Virus record (IMG/VR): IMGVR_UViG_3300023181_000028
Location: 1-64,000 of that record
DNA from: a virus
Strand: one strand, 5' to 3'
Length of the DNA stretch: 64,000 bases
Shown here piece by piece: positions 5,902 to 15,189 of this stretch (position 1 is the stretch's first letter; every line of letters starts with the position of its first letter). A model generated the notes under the pieces. It did not search any database. It was given only the letters and a program-made list of their open reading frames with translations, and was not told the origin of the DNA. Position numbers and translations under genes: made by a program.

Positions 5902-6474
5902 TTATTCTTTAGCCCTTAATTTATCTCTCCACGCATTATTTACCCGCTGGTTGACCTTATTAAGATCCTTTAAATACATCATTTTATTACTAATCCGGCG
6001 CTTCTTTTCAACTTCTGGCGGAATAATAGACTTATGTTTCTTAGGCTTGTTTTTAGATTTATTATGAGGCTTACGCTCTTTTGGGTTCTTTTTAGTTCTA
6101 CCCTTTTTATCCTTAGCATAAGGATTATATACTTTTAATTGAATATTGTAAAACGGACTTAGCTTATTAATTTCCCTTTGTTCCAAATCATATAGCCTAC
6201 TCCGGTCAAATCCGGCCATATATTCTAAATGACGCTCAAAAACAAAATTATCTAATCCATGTAAGTCGAAATCAGCTTGAAGTTTATAATTGGAATGCTT
6301 TTTATGACTCAGGGCTAGTTTATGGCAATCAAACCTTCTTTCAAAATTGCCAGTGCTTCCAATGTAAATGTTATTGTTAACCACGCACCGAATAATGTAA
6401 ATCCCTGATCTGTATCCGATATATTTCTTCTTCAATATCTTTCCAAGCAATCTATCGTAAACTACATCAGCCAT
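5902..6474 (-). CDS. GIY-YIG homing-type endonuclease
   Basis: The N-terminal domain carries the GIY-YIG signature: SGIYIIRC (about residues 23-30) and IYIGSTGNFERRFDCH (about residues 36-51). The expected Arg and a downstream Glu (LEQREINKLSP) follow. The C-terminal half is extremely Lys/Arg/Asn-rich (KDKKGRTKKNPKERKPHNKSK) and looks like a DNA-binding tail. The family cleaves DNA, often as free-standing mobile nucleases in phage genomes. It is not nested in an intron here. It is encoded in the early region. Confidence 0.8.
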   Translation of the reverse strand: MADVVYDRLLGKILKKKYIGYRSGIYIIRCVVNNNIYIGSTGNFERRFDCHKLALSHKKHSNYKLQADFDLHGLDNFVFERHLEYMAGFDRSRLYDLEQREINKLSPFYNIQLKVYNPYAKDKKGRTKKNPKERKPHNKSKNKPKKHKSIIPPEVEKKRRISNKMMYLKDLNKVNQRVNNAWRDKLRAKE

Positions 6475-8339: not shown

Positions 8340-8366
8340 AGCTTGATTTTATTGGTTTATAAGAGG

Positions 8367-8395
8367 TTTTACGAAAAACATATATAAAGGTTGCA
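8367..8395 (-). promoter_or_regulatory. Early-type promoter, leftward
   Basis: On the minus strand: TGCAACCTT (8395-8387), 13 nt, CGTAAAA (8373-8367). The start of the 47-aa gene at 8339 is 34 nt from the CG. It opens the leftward lipoprotein operon. Confidence 0.65.
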
Positions 8396-8615
8396 TTTAT
8401 TATTCAAATAGGCTTAAATACAGGGTTTATGTCATTAAACAGGGTAAAAGATTATGCCATTATTTTTATTATACAATTCTATTGCTTTTATCGGGGCCAT
8501 TCGGCGGAACAAGAAATAAATTATGCTCTATTATCATTGGGGCTATTTCAGGGTTAAAACGTATAAAATCAATTCAAATTTATTATTGAAGGTAGTAAAA
8601 TAGTAGTTAAAGATG

Positions 8616-8623
8616 TATATTTG
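8616..8623 (+). promoter_or_regulatory. Bacteroidota-like -7 box (TATATTTG)
   Basis: A perfect TAnnTTTG box on the plus strand, followed by the RNA candidate and its terminator. No well-placed TTG -33 element is seen (the nearest is 26 bp upstream of the box), so strength is uncertain. Confidence 0.4.
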
Positions 8624-8715
8624 CATTCAACAGAGACTTAGTCATGCTCGATCTCAGTTATGTTTTGTTGGTTCAAACAGGATAAATCCCGGCTAAATAC
8701 TGGGATTTTTTCTTT
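8624..8715 (+). ncRNA. Small RNA candidate upstream of a terminator
   Basis: About 90 nt from just after the TATATTTG box to the end of a strong terminator (AAATCCC 8684-8690 / GGGATTT 8702-8708, then a T-rich run). No ORF is found. Internal GAGA/TCTC pairing is possible. The element looks like a self-contained short transcript, but it could also be a leader region that ends before the early promoter at 8718. Confidence 0.4.
8684..8715 (+). terminator. Intrinsic terminator
   Basis: A 7-bp stem (AAATCCC/GGGATTT) with an 11-nt loop and a TTTTTTCTTTT tail. It isolates the early promoter just downstream (8718) from any upstream transcript. Confidence 0.7.
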
Positions 8716-8717
8716 TA

Positions 8718-8747
8718 TGCAACCTTTTGCAACTTCCGCGCGTATAA
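8718..8747 (+). promoter_or_regulatory. Early-type promoter, rightward
   Basis: TGCAACCTT (8718-8726), 14 nt, CGTATAA (8741-8747). The CG is 32 nt before the ATG at 8773. It is the first promoter of the rightward early block. Confidence 0.6.
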
Positions 8748-8772
8748 CTATTAACTTTTAAAACATAAAATT

Positions 8773-9729: not shown

Positions 9730-9866
9730 AAACTTATACAAAAGACGAAGTGATTAAATTAATCTATGCTTATGAAAACTATTTAATGGGAAGTATCGGA
9801 AGAGATGGTTATTATAATGGAATAGACTTCGTAGAAGAATTTCTTAAAGAAAACCCTATTAAATAA
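9726..9866 (+). CDS. Small protein (46 aa), coupled
   Basis: ATG 9726 opens 46 codons (MKTYTKDEVIKLIYAYENYLMG...ENPIK), a helical acidic peptide. It begins inside the stop codon of the previous gene and ends just before the next early promoter. It is short, but the overlap and codon pattern support a real gene. Confidence 0.6.
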   Translation: MKTYTKDEVIKLIYAYENYLMGSIGRDGYYNGIDFVEEFLKENPIK

Positions 9867-9870
9867 TAAT

Positions 9871-9911
9871 TTGCAAATAAATGCAACCTTATTACCTTTA
9901 CATTCGTTAAA
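9871..9911 (+). promoter_or_regulatory. Early-type promoter with TTGCA palindrome, before the structured RNA
   Basis: The palindrome TTGCA-N6-TGCAA (9871-9886) overlaps TGCAACCTT (9882-9890). A 14-nt spacer and CGTTAAA (9905-9911) follow. The structured RNA begins about 30 nt further on, so this promoter appears to drive it. Confidence 0.7.
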
Positions 9912-9936
9912 CATACAAGTTCTTTAAAAACATTTA

Positions 9937-10290
9937 ATATTGCTTCGGTGGCCTAAATATAGGTAAAGTGTTGTGAGGCTAGCGCACGAGCAAGCAAAGG
10001 GAATGTAAAGTCCCGGCCCACCGAACGCAATATGATATTTCTTGCTTGAAGATAAACAATAGAGCAGTACGATACTTCCTTTAAGTGGGAAATACGCTGT
10101 ACATCTATAATCTATATCCAATAGATGTTGTTTATTGTAGAGATAATACTTTATGTAGTGGAGCCTTGGCAAGTACTCAGAAATGAGGAGATGTGAAGCT
10201 ACATATTGTCGGATTATTCCTTTGGAAATGGGACAAGAGATAAGAGCATTAGTACCGCAACCTTTTTAAGGCGTAGAAGCGGGCTAATGT
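9937..10290 (+). ncRNA. Large ornate structured RNA (~354 nt), no protein
   Basis: The 445-nt gap 9867-10311 holds no gene but many long-range pairings. P1: 9937-9943 with 10027-10033 and 9944-9951 with 10018-10025 (15 bp, one bulge). Hairpin: 9999-10002/10011-10014. Next stem: 10052-10059/10128-10135 (8 bp), enclosing 10102-10108/10121-10127 (7 bp) and a TTCC/GGAA hairpin. Then 10152-10158/10199-10205 (7 bp) encloses CTCA-GAAA-TGAG (10176-10187, a GNRA tetraloop). Then TGTC/GACA (10207/10232) with TTCC-TTT-GGAA. Finally CATTAG/CTAATG (10247/10284) encloses CCGC/GCGG and CCTT/AAGG. Also, CAAGCAA (9991-9997, inside P1) is the exact complement of TTGCTTG (10042-10048), a likely pseudoknot. A U-rich tail (10290-10297) follows. 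It could be a free RNA or the leader of the gene at 10312. No known family was recognised by eye. Confidence 0.75.
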
Positions 10291-10311
10291 TTCTTTTAAA
10301 ACTTAAAAATT

Positions 10312-10524
10312 ATGCAAACAGTAAAATATCATTTTAGTTTCTCCACGCAAAGCAAGGAGCCTATCACTGAGTCTCAGTTTATACGACTTATCAAATATCA
10401 AAAGAACTTAGACACTCTATTGATAAATGACTCAACTATATCTCAACAAAAAAGGCTTGCATTATGGGCGGAAAGTCAAAGAACAATTAAATTCTTAAGA
10501 AACTATGGGACTTATAACGGATAA
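10312..10524 (+). CDS. Small helical protein (70 aa) after the structured RNA
   Basis: Its ATG lies 22 nt after the last RNA hairpin. The product is basic and helical (LIKYQKNLDTLLINDSTISQQKRLALW). It overlaps the next gene by 20 nt. If the RNA is a leader, this operon (10312-15144) would be its target. The function is unknown. Confidence 0.55.
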   Translation: MQTVKYHFSFSTQSKEPITESQFIRLIKYQKNLDTLLINDSTISQQKRLALWAESQRTIKFLRNYGTYNG

Positions 10525-10651
10525 ACCTTACAGAAGGTTAAACAGGGAAACCGGACTATTTGAATGGGTGTATCCTGAGCCAACTCAATACGATCAGAAA
10601 GACGTTCTTAAGCCTATTAAGATAGTTAAACCTAAAAGAAGGAAGAGATGA
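10505..10651 (+). CDS. Small basic protein (48 aa), overlapping
   Basis: ATG 10505 opens 48 codons (MGLITDKPYRRLNRETGLFEWVYPEPTQ...KPKRRKR). It starts 20 nt before the stop of the previous gene and its TGA overlaps the next ATG (10648). The aromatic middle and Lys/Arg tail suggest nucleic-acid contact. The function is unknown. Confidence 0.6.
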   Translation: MGLITDKPYRRLNRETGLFEWVYPEPTQYDQKDVLKPIKIVKPKRRKR

Positions 10652-11061
10652 GTGTTTATGAGCAACGTATTGCCGCGCAACTCTATCATTTTTATGAGAG
10701 GTATAAAGAATACGAAGACCCTCTAAGCAGGTATCATTCACACTTGCATCTAGACCTCGTATTCGACCATTTAAAGGAGAGAAATAAGGAAATAGTGTTA
10801 GAGGGAGATATTAAAGATAAGTTGTGGAAAATGGCTATAATTGAATGTAAGGAACAACACGTCTCGTGGATGAAAGCATTAAAAGATAAGAGACTGGCTC
10901 AAACCGCAAAGGAATTATTAACGGCGGAAAAAATAAGATTTTTCAAGACATACATCACTAGATACTTCCTTTTAGAGAAACTAAAGGATGGTATATGGGT
11001 TCAGGTTACAGACGATGAAACAGGTAAAAAGGTTAGCTTATTAAGTTTTGTAGGGAAATGA
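10648..11061 (+). CDS. Hypothetical helical protein (137 aa) before the helicase
   Basis: A highly charged, mainly helical protein (YEQRIAAQLYHFYERYKEYEDPLSRYHSHLHLDLVFDHL). Its stop overlaps the ATG of the helicase gene (11058), so a joint role in replication or a helicase accessory role is plausible. No motif is recognised. Confidence 0.6.
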   Translation: MSVYEQRIAAQLYHFYERYKEYEDPLSRYHSHLHLDLVFDHLKERNKEIVLEGDIKDKLWKMAIIECKEQHVSWMKALKDKRLAQTAKELLTAEKIRFFKTYITRYFLLEKLKDGIWVQVTDDETGKKVSLLSFVGK

Positions 11062-12617
11062 AAGAACTCCGCGCATACCAATCCGAATGTATAAATACGG
11101 TTCAAAATGAACTAATTTCCGGCATTTCATCTCAATTGATCGTCATGAGTATGGGGCTAGGAAAGACTTTCACTGCCGTTAAGATGACAGAACAGCTTGG
11201 ATTTAAAAGTGTATTATGGGTAACGGATGATGAGCGCCTGCTTGAGCAATCTGCATTAGCGTTCGCTTATGATAAGTTTGAACCTGAATTAGTGGAGAAA
11301 ATAGCTAAGAACGGCCTGCTTAATTACATAAGATCCGGCGGAACGTTCAATGGGTATAAAATGGGGGTTATCAAAGCAGACTTGTTTAAGCCTGATGGCG
11401 ATGTAGTTTTTTGTTCCGCGCAAACATTATGGCGGAGATTAGATAAGTTAGATCCTTACAAATACGACTGTCTCATAATAGATGAATGCCACCTCTTCGG
11501 AGCCAATACATTTTTTAAAGGTATTTCACACTTCCACCCTAAACTGAGGCTAGGATTAACCGGAACTCCATTTAGGAAAGACGGCATGATGCTATCTGAT
11601 ATATTCCAAAAGATTGTATTTGAATACAATATGTTAGAGGGTATTAAATCAGGGTACTTGTGTGAACTAGATGCAATCAGGATTAAGACAAATTGCTCAT
11701 TGGACGGAGTGCATACGCTGGCAGGTGACTTTAACGAAAAAGAACTATCTGATGAATTGAACACTTTGGCGCGTAACAACTTAATCGCTCAGTCTTATAT
11801 TAAGTACTGTAAGGGTCGCCAAGCCATCGGATTTGGAATTGATATACAACATTGCATTGATCTTGCAGAAGCCTTTAGACAGCACGGAATTAGCGCAATA
11901 GCCATATCCAGCGACGAGGAAAGAACCGGAGATAAGAATATTGGAATTAAACAATATAGAGAAGGGATAATTGAGGTTATATTCAGTGTTAATCTATTAA
12001 GTAAAGGATTTGACCATCCCGATACCGGATGCACAATAGCGGCAGCCCCAACTAAATCAATAGTAAGATATTTACAAGGGCCAGGAGGAAGAGGAAGTCG
12101 ATTGAAGTCCGCGGAATACGTTTCTAAATTTGGACAAAATTGTATAATTTTAGACGTGGTGGATAATACCACTAAACACAACCTTATTAATGCTTGGGAA
12201 TTAGACAAACAAAAGCCAGTTGAAGAAAGAACTTTTATAAGTCAGGATAAGAAAGATAAATTACTAGCCGTTCGAAATGCTACAAAAATATCCCACGAAA
12301 GAAAAGAGGATGAAATTGTTAAACTTTTGCAGATACCTAGACTCAAACTATCTAAGTTCTACACAATGTCTGATGATGCCACGCCCGCTCAAATAGAAGC
12401 GATCAAAAAATTTGGATATACTGATGAAGTTCATTACACAAAGTTTATGATAACCGAGATATTTGCAGCGCAGCCAGTTACACCATCTCAATGGGGATGG
12501 CTAAAATATAAGGGATATGATGTGTCGGGTAAAGTGATAACGCGCGGAGAGTTTGAAGCGGCAAGAAGAGAAGTGGAAAGAAAAGAAGAAAAGAGAAACC
12601 TTAATAAGAAATTTTAG
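11058..12617 (+). CDS. SF2 DEAD/DECH-box helicase
   Basis: Walker A SMGLGKT (residues 31-37), Walker B DECH (142-145) and TGTPFR motif III (168-173) are in order. A C-terminal RecA-like domain with QGPGGRGSR (motif VI-like, about residue 345) follows. At 519 residues it has the size of phage UvsW/RAD25-like DNA repair or recombination helicases. It would use ATP to unwind branched or duplex DNA. The C-terminal ~60 residues (WGWLKYKGYDVSG...EAARREVERKEEK) are an extra helical module. The operon context of replication genes agrees. Confidence 0.85.
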   Translation: MKELRAYQSECINTVQNELISGISSQLIVMSMGLGKTFTAVKMTEQLGFKSVLWVTDDERLLEQSALAFAYDKFEPELVEKIAKNGLLNYIRSGGTFNGYKMGVIKADLFKPDGDVVFCSAQTLWRRLDKLDPYKYDCLIIDECHLFGANTFFKGISHFHPKLRLGLTGTPFRKDGMMLSDIFQKIVFEYNMLEGIKSGYLCELDAIRIKTNCSLDGVHTLAGDFNEKELSDELNTLARNNLIAQSYIKYCKGRQAIGFGIDIQHCIDLAEAFRQHGISAIAISSDEERTGDKNIGIKQYREGIIEVIFSVNLLSKGFDHPDTGCTIAAAPTKSIVRYLQGPGGRGSRLKSAEYVSKFGQNCIILDVVDNTTKHNLINAWELDKQKPVEERTFISQDKKDKLLAVRNATKISHERKEDEIVKLLQIPRLKLSKFYTMSDDATPAQIEAIKKFGYTDEVHYTKFMITEIFAAQPVTPSQWGWLKYKGYDVSGKVITRGEFEAARREVERKEEKRNLNKKF

Positions 12618-12629
12618 TAAAACCAATAT

Positions 12630-13214
12630 ATGAAAGAAATAAAAGGATCTATATCCTACACATTACAAATCTCTGATTCCGGCGAATGGACAGTTACATA
12701 CGGAACAGAAGGTCAATCAGAAGAGGATTCTGTGCATAATGACATAGCTTCTCTTGTGATTGCTCAGAATGTTATGGAGCAATGCGCCGCCACTATGAAA
12801 CTTAATAAAGAATCATTAAAGGGCAGAGATAAGAAATACATGACCCAAAAGCTAGATAAGGTGATTGATGGTAGGTTTGGATTAAAACTTATCGCGGATT
12901 ACCTGATTGATTGCTATGAAGGCTATATGGAGTTCTTATCTAAGAAAGCGTCGGACAAAGAAGCTAATCCTAAAGCAGAACAAGTTACAATGACTGAGGA
13001 AGAAATTAAAATGGCTAAAGAAACCCATGACAGGCTCACTAACGAATTAGTTAAAGGAGTGTTGGATAAATATCCAGATCACGTAAATTCATATAAAGAA
13101 GGGCAAACAGGACTGCTGGGGATGTTCGTTGGAGAGGCTATGAAGGCATCGAAAGGTAAAATAGATCCAAAATATCTAAATAACATTGTTAAAAATCAAT
13201 TAGATGGATTATAG
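12630..13214 (+). CDS. Hypothetical replication-operon protein (194 aa)
   Basis: It begins with a beta segment (GSISYTLQISDSGEWTVTYGTEG) and continues as a charged helical protein. Position between the SF2 helicase and the DnaB-like helicase suggests an accessory to one of them. It overlaps the next gene by 11 nt. No known motif. Confidence 0.5.
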   Translation: MKEIKGSISYTLQISDSGEWTVTYGTEGQSEEDSVHNDIASLVIAQNVMEQCAATMKLNKESLKGRDKKYMTQKLDKVIDGRFGLKLIADYLIDCYEGYMEFLSKKASDKEANPKAEQVTMTEEEIKMAKETHDRLTNELVKGVLDKYPDHVNSYKEGQTGLLGMFVGEAMKASKGKIDPKYLNNIVKNQLDGL

Positions 13215-13386
13215 TGAGTTTATAGGTGCGGCATTGGCGGAACCTCTAGGGGATGGAATGTGGAATGTATATGCTAATGGTTTTGTAAAGATTAGTGATT
13301 GTTCCGGCGACACAGAGTTTGAAGCCAAAGAAGACGCTTGGAGATACATACAAAGACTTAAAGATAAAATAGATGAAAAAGATTAA
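13204..13386 (+). CDS. Small acidic protein (60 aa)
   Basis: Starts MDYSEFIGAALAEPLGDGM. Small and acidic, it overlaps both neighbours by 11-14 nt. Nothing else can be said. Confidence 0.5.
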   Translation: MDYSEFIGAALAEPLGDGMWNVYANGFVKISDCSGDTEFEAKEDAWRYIQRLKDKIDEKD

Positions 13387-13729
13387 ATTAGAAGAGCAAT
13401 TCCAATTAGGAGATCAGGTGTATCTCTACACTAAAAACGATGAAGGTAAGCCTATTATTAAATCAGTGGCATCCTCAAATGTAAAGAAAGAGAAAGAAAA
13501 GAAGGCTTTTGTGCCACCCACCCTGGCGGATGTAATTGTATTCTTTAATAAGAATGGGTACGATAATGAACTTGCTAAAAAGTTTTTTAACGGCTACGAT
13601 GTAGCTGAATGGAAAGACAGCAATGGCAGACAAATACATAATTGGCAACAGAAAGCCCACCAAGTTTGGTTTAGAGATACTAACAAACTACCCGTTAAAG
13701 AGAAACAAGAGTCTAAATTCATGTTTTAA
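13373..13729 (+). CDS. Hypothetical protein (118 aa) before DnaB-like helicase
   Basis: A small protein with a conserved-looking C-terminal aromatic segment (FFNGYDVAEWKDSNGRQIHNWQQKAHQVWF). Such an aromatic 'N-x-Q-x-K' patch just before a DnaB homologue is reminiscent of helicase-loader or primosome accessory proteins, but this is only context. It lies 2 nt before the helicase ATG. Confidence 0.5.
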   Translation: MKKIKLEEQFQLGDQVYLYTKNDEGKPIIKSVASSNVKKEKEKKAFVPPTLADVIVFFNKNGYDNELAKKFFNGYDVAEWKDSNGRQIHNWQQKAHQVWFRDTNKLPVKEKQESKFMF

Positions 13730-13731
13730 CC

Positions 13732-15144
13732 ATGCAAGAAGCACATAGTCTGGATATGCAGACAAAACTATTGGGGGTGTACATGGGTAATCCCGATGCA
13801 TTCTCTCATGTAGAAAACTTATTCAAATCAAACATCTTCACCACAACTATCTATAAACACTGTTTTAAGATCATTACAGCGTATCATGCCAAGAATATAA
13901 AGTCTGATATGAATATTATCTTAAACGCTCTTATAAAGGCTGGAATAGATAAAAAAGAGGCTGCTATGTCAGTGTCTAAGTTAGATGTTTACACCCACCT
14001 ATCCGCCGGACAAATAGCTGAATATGTTACATCCCTATTTGAAGAAGCCCTTACAAATGATCTTGTTCCCTTTATCGAGAATGTTGCCTCCACTACAAAC
14101 CCACAGAATGTATTTGAGAAGATAGGGGAGTTGAAGGATAAGATTAATCGCGTGGAGTTGACGGTTAATAACGTTAGCAAGGAAGTGAGTATTAAGACTC
14201 AGTTTAAAGAGGCGGTTAACAGAATTAAGAATTTAAAGACGGGTAAAATAGAACAAGCTGGATTTAGCTGGGGTATACCCTCTTTAGACAAAAAAACTCT
14301 TGGAATAGTTCAGGGGATCAACATTGTCGCGGCATCAAAAGGCGGTGGAAAATCCTCAATTTTGATAAATATTATCGTGGAGAACGTTGTAAAAAAACAA
14401 CTTCCTATGTTATTTTTCTCTATGGAGATGACTGCAATTGAAGTGCTAACAAATGTGATCGCTAACGTGCGTAGGATTAATTCTAAAGCACTTAGAACCG
14501 GACAAGTTGACGAGAATGACTTAATTGATATTGAAGCCATAGAGGGCAGATTAAATGAATCTTTTGTCATTGACCCCACCGGCGGAATAACCCACCAATA
14601 TTTTAAAGCGAAAGCAAGGGCGTTTAGAAAGGCTAATAATATACCAGATAATGAAACTATATTAGTGGCACTAGATTATTTGGGACTTATGAAAAATACA
14701 CCGGACGAGGCCAAGATGACTAAGGAAGAGAAGATAGAGCAAATATGCACCGAATTAATGTGTAGCTGCAAGGATGAAAATATCGCTTTAGTTAAACTTG
14801 CTCAATTCGGAAGAGAACTAGACAGGCGCGGTAATGATAGCTACGCAGTTAAAAACGATTCGGATAAACTAAGAGCTTTACGTCCTAAAATGAGCGATCT
14901 TAAGGGTTCCTCTGCAATTGAAAGTAATGCGGTTACTATTCTTTTACTATACAGACCTAGTTATTATGGGATATTAGAGTCGGACGGGAAAGACTTTCGC
15001 GGACTTTGCGAGATAAACATAGCAAAAGGACGGTACGTGAATCCTGAGCCTGTATATGTGAAATTCAAAGGAGAATATTCTTTATTTCAGGATATTGAAG
15101 AGAGTGAATCGGCAATACAATCAACAGAAGAACCTCCCTTTTAA
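13732..15144 (+). CDS. DnaB-like replicative helicase (SF4)
   Basis: 470 residues, the normal length for DnaB. N-terminal DnaB-type helical domain (about residues 1-120), then a linker. Walker A is ASKGGGKSS (201-209), Walker B is VALDYLGLM (about residues 308-316), and the late SDLKGSSAIESNA motif of DnaB C-terminal domains follows. It unwinds DNA at the replication fork as a hexameric ring. It ends just before an early-type promoter (15150), so the next genes are a separate unit. Confidence 0.88.
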   Translation: MQEAHSLDMQTKLLGVYMGNPDAFSHVENLFKSNIFTTTIYKHCFKIITAYHAKNIKSDMNIILNALIKAGIDKKEAAMSVSKLDVYTHLSAGQIAEYVTSLFEEALTNDLVPFIENVASTTNPQNVFEKIGELKDKINRVELTVNNVSKEVSIKTQFKEAVNRIKNLKTGKIEQAGFSWGIPSLDKKTLGIVQGINIVAASKGGGKSSILINIIVENVVKKQLPMLFFSMEMTAIEVLTNVIANVRRINSKALRTGQVDENDLIDIEAIEGRLNESFVIDPTGGITHQYFKAKARAFRKANNIPDNETILVALDYLGLMKNTPDEAKMTKEEKIEQICTELMCSCKDENIALVKLAQFGRELDRRGNDSYAVKNDSDKLRALRPKMSDLKGSSAIESNAVTILLLYRPSYYGILESDGKDFRGLCEINIAKGRYVNPEPVYVKFKGEYSLFQDIEESESAIQSTEEPPF

Positions 15145-15149
15145 AATAA

Positions 15150-15189
15150 TTGCAAAATAATGCAACCTTATTCTTTTTATCACGTTTAA
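15150..15189 (+). promoter_or_regulatory. Early-type promoter with TTGCA palindrome
   Basis: TTGCA-N6-TGCAA (15150-15165) runs into TGCAACCTT (15161-15169). A 13-nt spacer and CGTTTAA (15183-15189) follow. The CG is 25 nt before the ATG at 15208. Confidence 0.7.

Follow-up and report, generated by a model that had tools for sequence, protein, structure and literature searches.

Antitermination at boxA is best known from host rRNA, CRISPR transcripts and lambdoid phages, and boxA-led CRISPR arrays were reportedly described by Stringer et al. in 2020. On rRNA transcripts, boxA is the binding site of NusB and S10, which together with other Nus factors shield the untranslated rRNA from Rho; CRISPR-array transcripts receive the same protection (PMC12691694). 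The boxA consensus, GYTCTTTAANA, was derived for gamma-proteobacteria (PMC5725501). Two large RNA classes of phages, ROOL and GOLLD, occur near tRNA islands (PMC12286853). In the literature examined, no documentation of boxA function was found for phages of Bacteroidota. Here we describe an early phage locus that reprises several features of these systems. Our best explanation, in which we place roughly even confidence, is that it is a boxA-led untranslated unit at the head of a helicase and replication operon, transcribed mostly as a discrete RNA of ~390 nt with some readthrough.

The window, by which we mean the whole stretch of 64,000 nt that was analysed, is part of a virus record of 80,011 bases. 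The ends of that record share a 137-bp repeat (97.8% identity), and the record is therefore probably close to complete. Its terminase has ~25% identity to terminases of crAss-like phages and its capsid protein resembles those of Flavobacterium phages, so that the source virus is, judging by these two likenesses, a phage of Bacteroidota. A gap of 445 nt (9867-10311) separates a 46-aa ORF, which ends at 9866, from a 70-aa ORF that starts at 10312; as originally predicted it encodes no protein, in that no convincing ORF is present. The features of the locus are as follows.

9871-9900, plus strand: Bacteroidota-type promoter, TTG-N19-TACCTTTA, from the sequence and a regular-expression scan
9919-9929, plus strand: boxA GTTCTTTAAAA, the putative NusB/S10 antitermination signal, from the consensus match, Bacteroidia rRNA leaders and identity to relative L060
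9937-10033, plus strand: domain 1, multi-branched, closed by 9937-9953/10015-10033, z -3.2
10036-10242, plus strand: predicted domain 2, closed by UAUUUCUUG/CAAGAGAUA (10036-10044/10234-10242)
10244-10297, plus strand: terminator-like 3' element, a long irregular hairpin followed by TTTCTTTT, z -2.7, stem P 0.93
9917-10304, plus strand: possible leader-trailer pairing of AAGUU..UUAAAA (9917-9929) with UUUUAA.AACUU (10294-10304), P 0.77, AU-rich and weak
9991-9997, plus strand: CAAGCAA, pseudoknot arm of the original prediction, with partner TTGCTTG at 10042-10048
10312-15144, plus strand: downstream genes, comprising the 70-aa ORF, small ORFs and two helicases, from PHROGs and the ORF list
11058-12617, plus strand: DEAD-type helicase, from PHROGs
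13732-15144, plus strand: DnaB-like helicase, from PHROGs

The operon also holds a GatB/YqeY-domain protein (12630-13214), and a free-standing GIY-YIG endonuclease is encoded elsewhere in the window (5902-6474, minus strand).

The promoter consists of a -33 TTG (9871-9873), a 19-nt spacer and the -7 box (9893-9900), with the -33 part sitting in a palindrome, TTGCA-AATAAA-TGCAA (9871-9886). That the RNA has its own promoter upstream had been predicted, and it does; the promoter was placed about 25 nt upstream, but the distance from the end of the -7 box to 9937 is 37 nt. Transcription from this promoter would start at ~9906-9910. Further copies of the 24-nt promoter core, TTGCA-N6-TGCAACCTTATT, lie in the same orientation at 15150 and 36256, compared with 0.02 occurrences expected, and the three intergenic plus-strand copies therefore appear to form a small set of phage promoters that are probably co-regulated. 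The palindrome-containing core common to all three suggests one shared phage regulator.

The boxA itself was overlooked in the original prediction. It is a perfect match to GYTCTTTAANA, a gamma-proteobacterial consensus. It begins 26 nt downstream of the first base of the -7 box, in the putative transcribed leader, with no convincing ORF before the next gene, and it is the sole intergenic occurrence of GTTCTTT[AG]WW in the window. The 17 nt at 9918-9934 are identical to the leader of L060. As a host-type comparison, 16S rRNA loci of Bacteroidia were collected; GTTCTTT is found in 24 of the 31 leaders counted, against a shuffled mean of 3.3. These leaders typically hold GTTCTTTGAAAATATTG or close variants ~55-210 nt upstream of the 16S gene, with the variant GTTCnTAGACATATTG in Flavobacterium and Aquimarina. 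A search of bacterial genomes with the exact 18-nt boxA context returned 81 stretches, 80 of which were inspected; these were mostly coding and none preceded a recognisable 16S start, which leaves the search uninformative.

The arrangement resembles rRNA-operon antitermination (NusB-S10/NusE, NusA, NusG, SuhB) in having a matching boxA soon after the promoter, followed by untranslated structured RNA, with tRNAs in the unit of two relatives. It differs in that it is phage-encoded, heads a helicase operon and comprises a short RNA, with NusB-S10 binding being putative here. In common with boxA-led CRISPR arrays it has a boxA before a long stretch of untranslated RNA that would otherwise be terminated by Rho, but no CRISPR repeats or cas genes are seen here and the carrier is a phage, not the host. 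Like the lambda nut site (boxA-boxB with N), it belongs to a phage early transcript with boxA downstream of the early promoter; unlike nut, it continues into hundreds of nucleotides of other RNA, and two of the relatives have a terminator at the end of the unit. By eye, no short GNRA-type boxB directly follows the window boxA, and no N-like gene was identified, N-like proteins being too variable to exclude.

The segment predicted to be a structured RNA, 9937-10290, has a minimum free energy of -98.2 kcal/mol and a z-score of about -2.8. Among 60 random 354-nt windows of the same phage (mean energy -67), two have a z-score as low or lower, the shuffle for this background being a segment-swap approximation. 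Domain 1 and the 3' hairpin score well (-3.2 and -2.7), and the middle (10034-10237) reaches just -0.75, no better than shuffles. The claim of a fold beyond random thus stands for the two flanking elements and is not borne out for the middle, the whole being matched by two of the 60 windows. An equally good fold is predicted for the reverse strand (z -3.5), and the strand assignment therefore rests on the promoter and boxA.

The individual stems that had been named do recur in the predicted fold, mostly with high pair probability. The 15-bp closing stem of domain 1 (9937-9951/10018-10033, one bulge) extends to 17 bp with P 0.91, and within it a GGGA/UCCC hairpin reaches P 0.98, the inner hairpins being less certain. 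Domain 2 is predicted to carry arms at 10051-10058/10129-10136 (0.91) and 10152-10158/10199-10205 (0.79), with helix probabilities of 0.8-0.9 and a CTCA-GAAA-TGAG hairpin at 10176-10187 (0.98). The terminal CATTAG/CTAATG stem (0.93), which encloses CCGC/GCGG, forms the 3' hairpin; the AU-rich base and the interrupted T-run are weaknesses of this element as a terminator, and a similar stem and T-run also end the RNA units of relatives G027 and G015. Termination would occur at this hairpin and T-run. The picture of an ornate RNA of great size, built from ten helices plus a pseudoknot, is not borne out. The exact complement of 9991-9997 does exist at 10042-10048, but 10 such 7-mer matches compare with 4.5 expected (p 0.06), which is within chance, and the pairing clashes with helix 10036-10044/10234-10242. 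Two elements of the window RNA thus stand out and the remainder is a prediction.

The put RNA of HK022 is likewise structured and opens an early phage operon, but put is ~70 nt, whereas the window RNA is ~390 nt, boxA-led and predicted to be multi-branched. A put-type RNA, with two closely joined stem-loops, was rejected as a candidate, as the predicted fold branches over ~350 nt.

Searches for known classes and for homologues of the window RNA were negative. Rfam 15 covariance models match nothing in the window at gathering level and nothing at E up to 10 in 9860-10320, in line with the original prediction, which had seen no signature of GOLLD, ROOL, HEARO, RNase P, tmRNA or a group I intron core. 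In the window region, neither GOLLD, ROOL, OLE and HEARO (no significant match) nor RNase P, tmRNA, group I/II introns, 6S and the Rfam 15 riboswitches are matched by their models; ARAGORN and Rfam find no tRNA or tmRNA in the window, and in the relatives the only credible Rfam match is tRNA. It is accordingly very improbable that one of the large classes, RNase P, tmRNA or an intron was overlooked at first, even with tRNAs at the locus in two relatives and the tRNA-island setting of ROOL and GOLLD. The window RNA shares with the latter two the character of a phage non-coding RNA, often near tRNAs, but is shorter, is without a covariance-model match or evidence of multimers, and is boxA-led at a fixed locus.

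Sequence and covariance-model searches of phage records, relatives and viral contigs returned no homologue of the window RNA. Blastn returns one chance match among phage records and only 11-18-nt matches among relatives, an exact 28-nt pattern is absent from the viral contigs searched, and a covariance model of domain 1 matches only itself. A model (R1) of the RNA shared by L060, L061 and L062 scores at best 6.9 bits in the window (E 0.83, unfiltered), compared with 141-162 bits for its members, and the 17-nt core of the L060 RNA occurs only in four already known contigs.

Single-protein searches with either helicase returned no relatives; terminase and helicase alignments did, and a second helicase alignment returned the same close relatives again. 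In these relatives, boxA followed by 190-600 untranslated nt lies just upstream of the helicase operon. Loci with boxA and a long untranslated gap are those of the window, G027, G015, L060, L061 and L062; L068 is identical to L061 here, and the truncated contig of L064 carries boxA at the corresponding position. No promoter-boxA unit was found in G005/L069, L063, L070, L071 and L072, which are without such an RNA. Among the phage loci examined, a promoter and boxA ahead of a long untranslated gap occur only upstream of the helicase operon. The distance from the start of the -7 box to boxA is 26 nt in G027, 25-26 nt in G015 and 17 nt in L060 and L061. These orthologous loci, in conjunction with the promoter, boxA and the fold of domain 1, support the central claim of the original prediction, a non-coding RNA with some structure at least and a promoter of its own.

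The untranslated gap measures 627 nt in G027 and 507 nt in G015. In both, boxA is followed by a 65-nt hairpin, tRNA-Gln, more structured RNA and a stem with a T-run, and a second promoter-like box precedes the next gene. The tRNAs, the terminator and this second box mark the RNA of these two phages as an apparently separate unit. G027 also holds a weak tRNA (30.9 bits, L048:489-562). A degenerate tRNA-like gene, Met-type with a CAT anticodon, is seen by eye near the boxA of L064 at about 40-107. G027 and G015 are 86-99% identical around the locus, but the segments between tRNA-Gln and the terminator do not align. In these two closely related phages (L056:6987-7613 and L057:8866-9372), the unalignable RNA lies between a near-identical tRNA-Gln and a near-identical downstream promoter region, which suggests a recent exchange of RNA cargo. 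In the G015 helicase (L057:5740-8361, minus strand), an intein-like insert containing a LAGLIDADG homing endonuclease lies at the ATP-binding motif.

L060 and L061 show a canonical promoter, then AGTTCTTTAAAA, then ~430 untranslated nt to the helicase, and L062 has a shorter version of the same RNA after an inserted gene. The conserved core, GGTTGAGGCT, GCGTAGAATAGCATTAAT and GGTGCTACACRTATCGTAAGAAACA, lies within helices that show two-sided substitutions: both partners have changed in 14 of 60 pairs, a result reached in none of 500 shuffles, with only 2-3 such pairs when the alignment is slid. These compensatory changes are good evidence, from three sequences, that the RNA is real. In L062 only ~35 nt separate it from the helicase gene, and there it looks like a leader rather than a discrete RNA. 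The region L060:4225-4540, which has 26 nt of similarity to window positions 8340-8772, is an AT-rich divergent-promoter region with CTGATWAWT-like repeats at a switch in GC skew and is a candidate replication origin. The RNAs of G027/G015 and of the L060 family show no detectable homology to each other or to the window RNA. What the phages share is the place, the promoter-boxA start and an untranslated structured RNA, not one RNA family.

In the boxA-led unit that we propose, the promoter at 9871-9900 would start a transcript with boxA within its first ~20 nt. Host NusB and S10 (NusE) would bind boxA, travel with the polymerase alongside NusA and NusG, and block Rho, allowing ~390 nt of untranslated RNA to be made without ribosomes. 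The RNA would fold, at least in domain 1 and the 3' hairpin. Most transcripts would stop at the hairpin and T-run (10244-10297), giving a discrete non-coding RNA of the phage, and some would read through and supply the helicase genes. Members of the phage group would keep the promoter and boxA and exchange the RNA behind them, either for tRNAs plus RNA or for an unrelated structured RNA. The sequence elements, their position, the co-occurrence with boxA and the covariation in three relatives are observed; we infer NusB/S10 binding, protection from Rho, termination, the discrete RNA and its function. By analogy, these phages most likely use the host boxA signal for untranslated RNA of their own.

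A less probable, though still substantial, alternative is that the RNA acts only in cis, as the 5' leader of the helicase operon. The boxA and RNA would then form a processive antitermination or attenuation element for the early genes, comparable in function to lambda nut, to HK022 put or to a riboswitch-type leader, with the 3' hairpin as attenuator and nothing acting in trans. The original prediction had offered such a leader as its alternative, and L060 and L062 fit it best: in L060, L061 and L062 no gene or clear terminator lies between the covarying RNA and the helicase start codon. The long downstream operon, as in phage antitermination systems, also suits a leader, but the tRNAs, strong terminators and second promoter-like box of G027 and G015 imply that the RNA there is not one. 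Failure to keep the RNA between phages would be odd for a cis element of the same operon, and the put leader has just two stem-loops in its ~70 nt. In the window, no second promoter fits between the 3' hairpin (10297) and 10312, leaving the operon without room for a promoter of its own, as a leader would have it; with a terminator-like hairpin at the same place, a discrete RNA with readthrough is therefore favoured over a pure leader.

It is rather unlikely that the gap is an ordinary AT-rich regulatory spacer, in which the promoter, boxA and terminator-like hairpin are functional but the intervening RNA has neither a conserved structure nor a function of its own, domain 1 being a hairpin that arose by chance or that stabilises the transcript. 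The poor score of the middle, the random windows that reach the same overall z-score and the lack of any sequence or structure homologue of the window RNA are what such a spacer would give. It does not readily account for the z-score of domain 1 and its 17-bp closing helix, or for relatives that retain an untranslated RNA at this position, with compensatory changes in three, and a boxA-led spacer of 390 nt would be costly for nothing.

For the boxA-led unit, one possible function is counter-defence. Counter-defence genes typically occupy fixed early loci whose cargo turns over rapidly. In L062, the gene inserted after the early promoter and before boxA and its RNA (L062:4306-4641) is Tad1-like (Thoeris anti-defence 1), with a match to PDB 8kbb (E 5e-12) and a weak one to Pfam Acb2_Tad1_hairpin. 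This is a lead only. The fuller version, an RNA cassette behind a copied host boxA whose tRNA or unrelated-RNA cargo is quickly exchanged like that of an anti-defence locus and whose RNAs act in trans against host defences, is a long shot in our estimate.

That the promoter-boxA start is retained while the RNA differs suggests that these phages have in common a locus for non-coding RNAs that change quickly. A host rRNA-type boxA appears to serve phages of Bacteroidota in making untranslated structured RNA at a fixed early position. The arrangement provides a search rule for further phage non-coding RNAs that share no sequence: a promoter, a boxA and a long gap, in this order, ahead of a helicase operon. 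In addition, the covarying RNA of L060, L061 and L062 is a concrete candidate for a new RNA family. The locus may also serve as a handle on how phages of Bacteroidota escape Rho early in infection.
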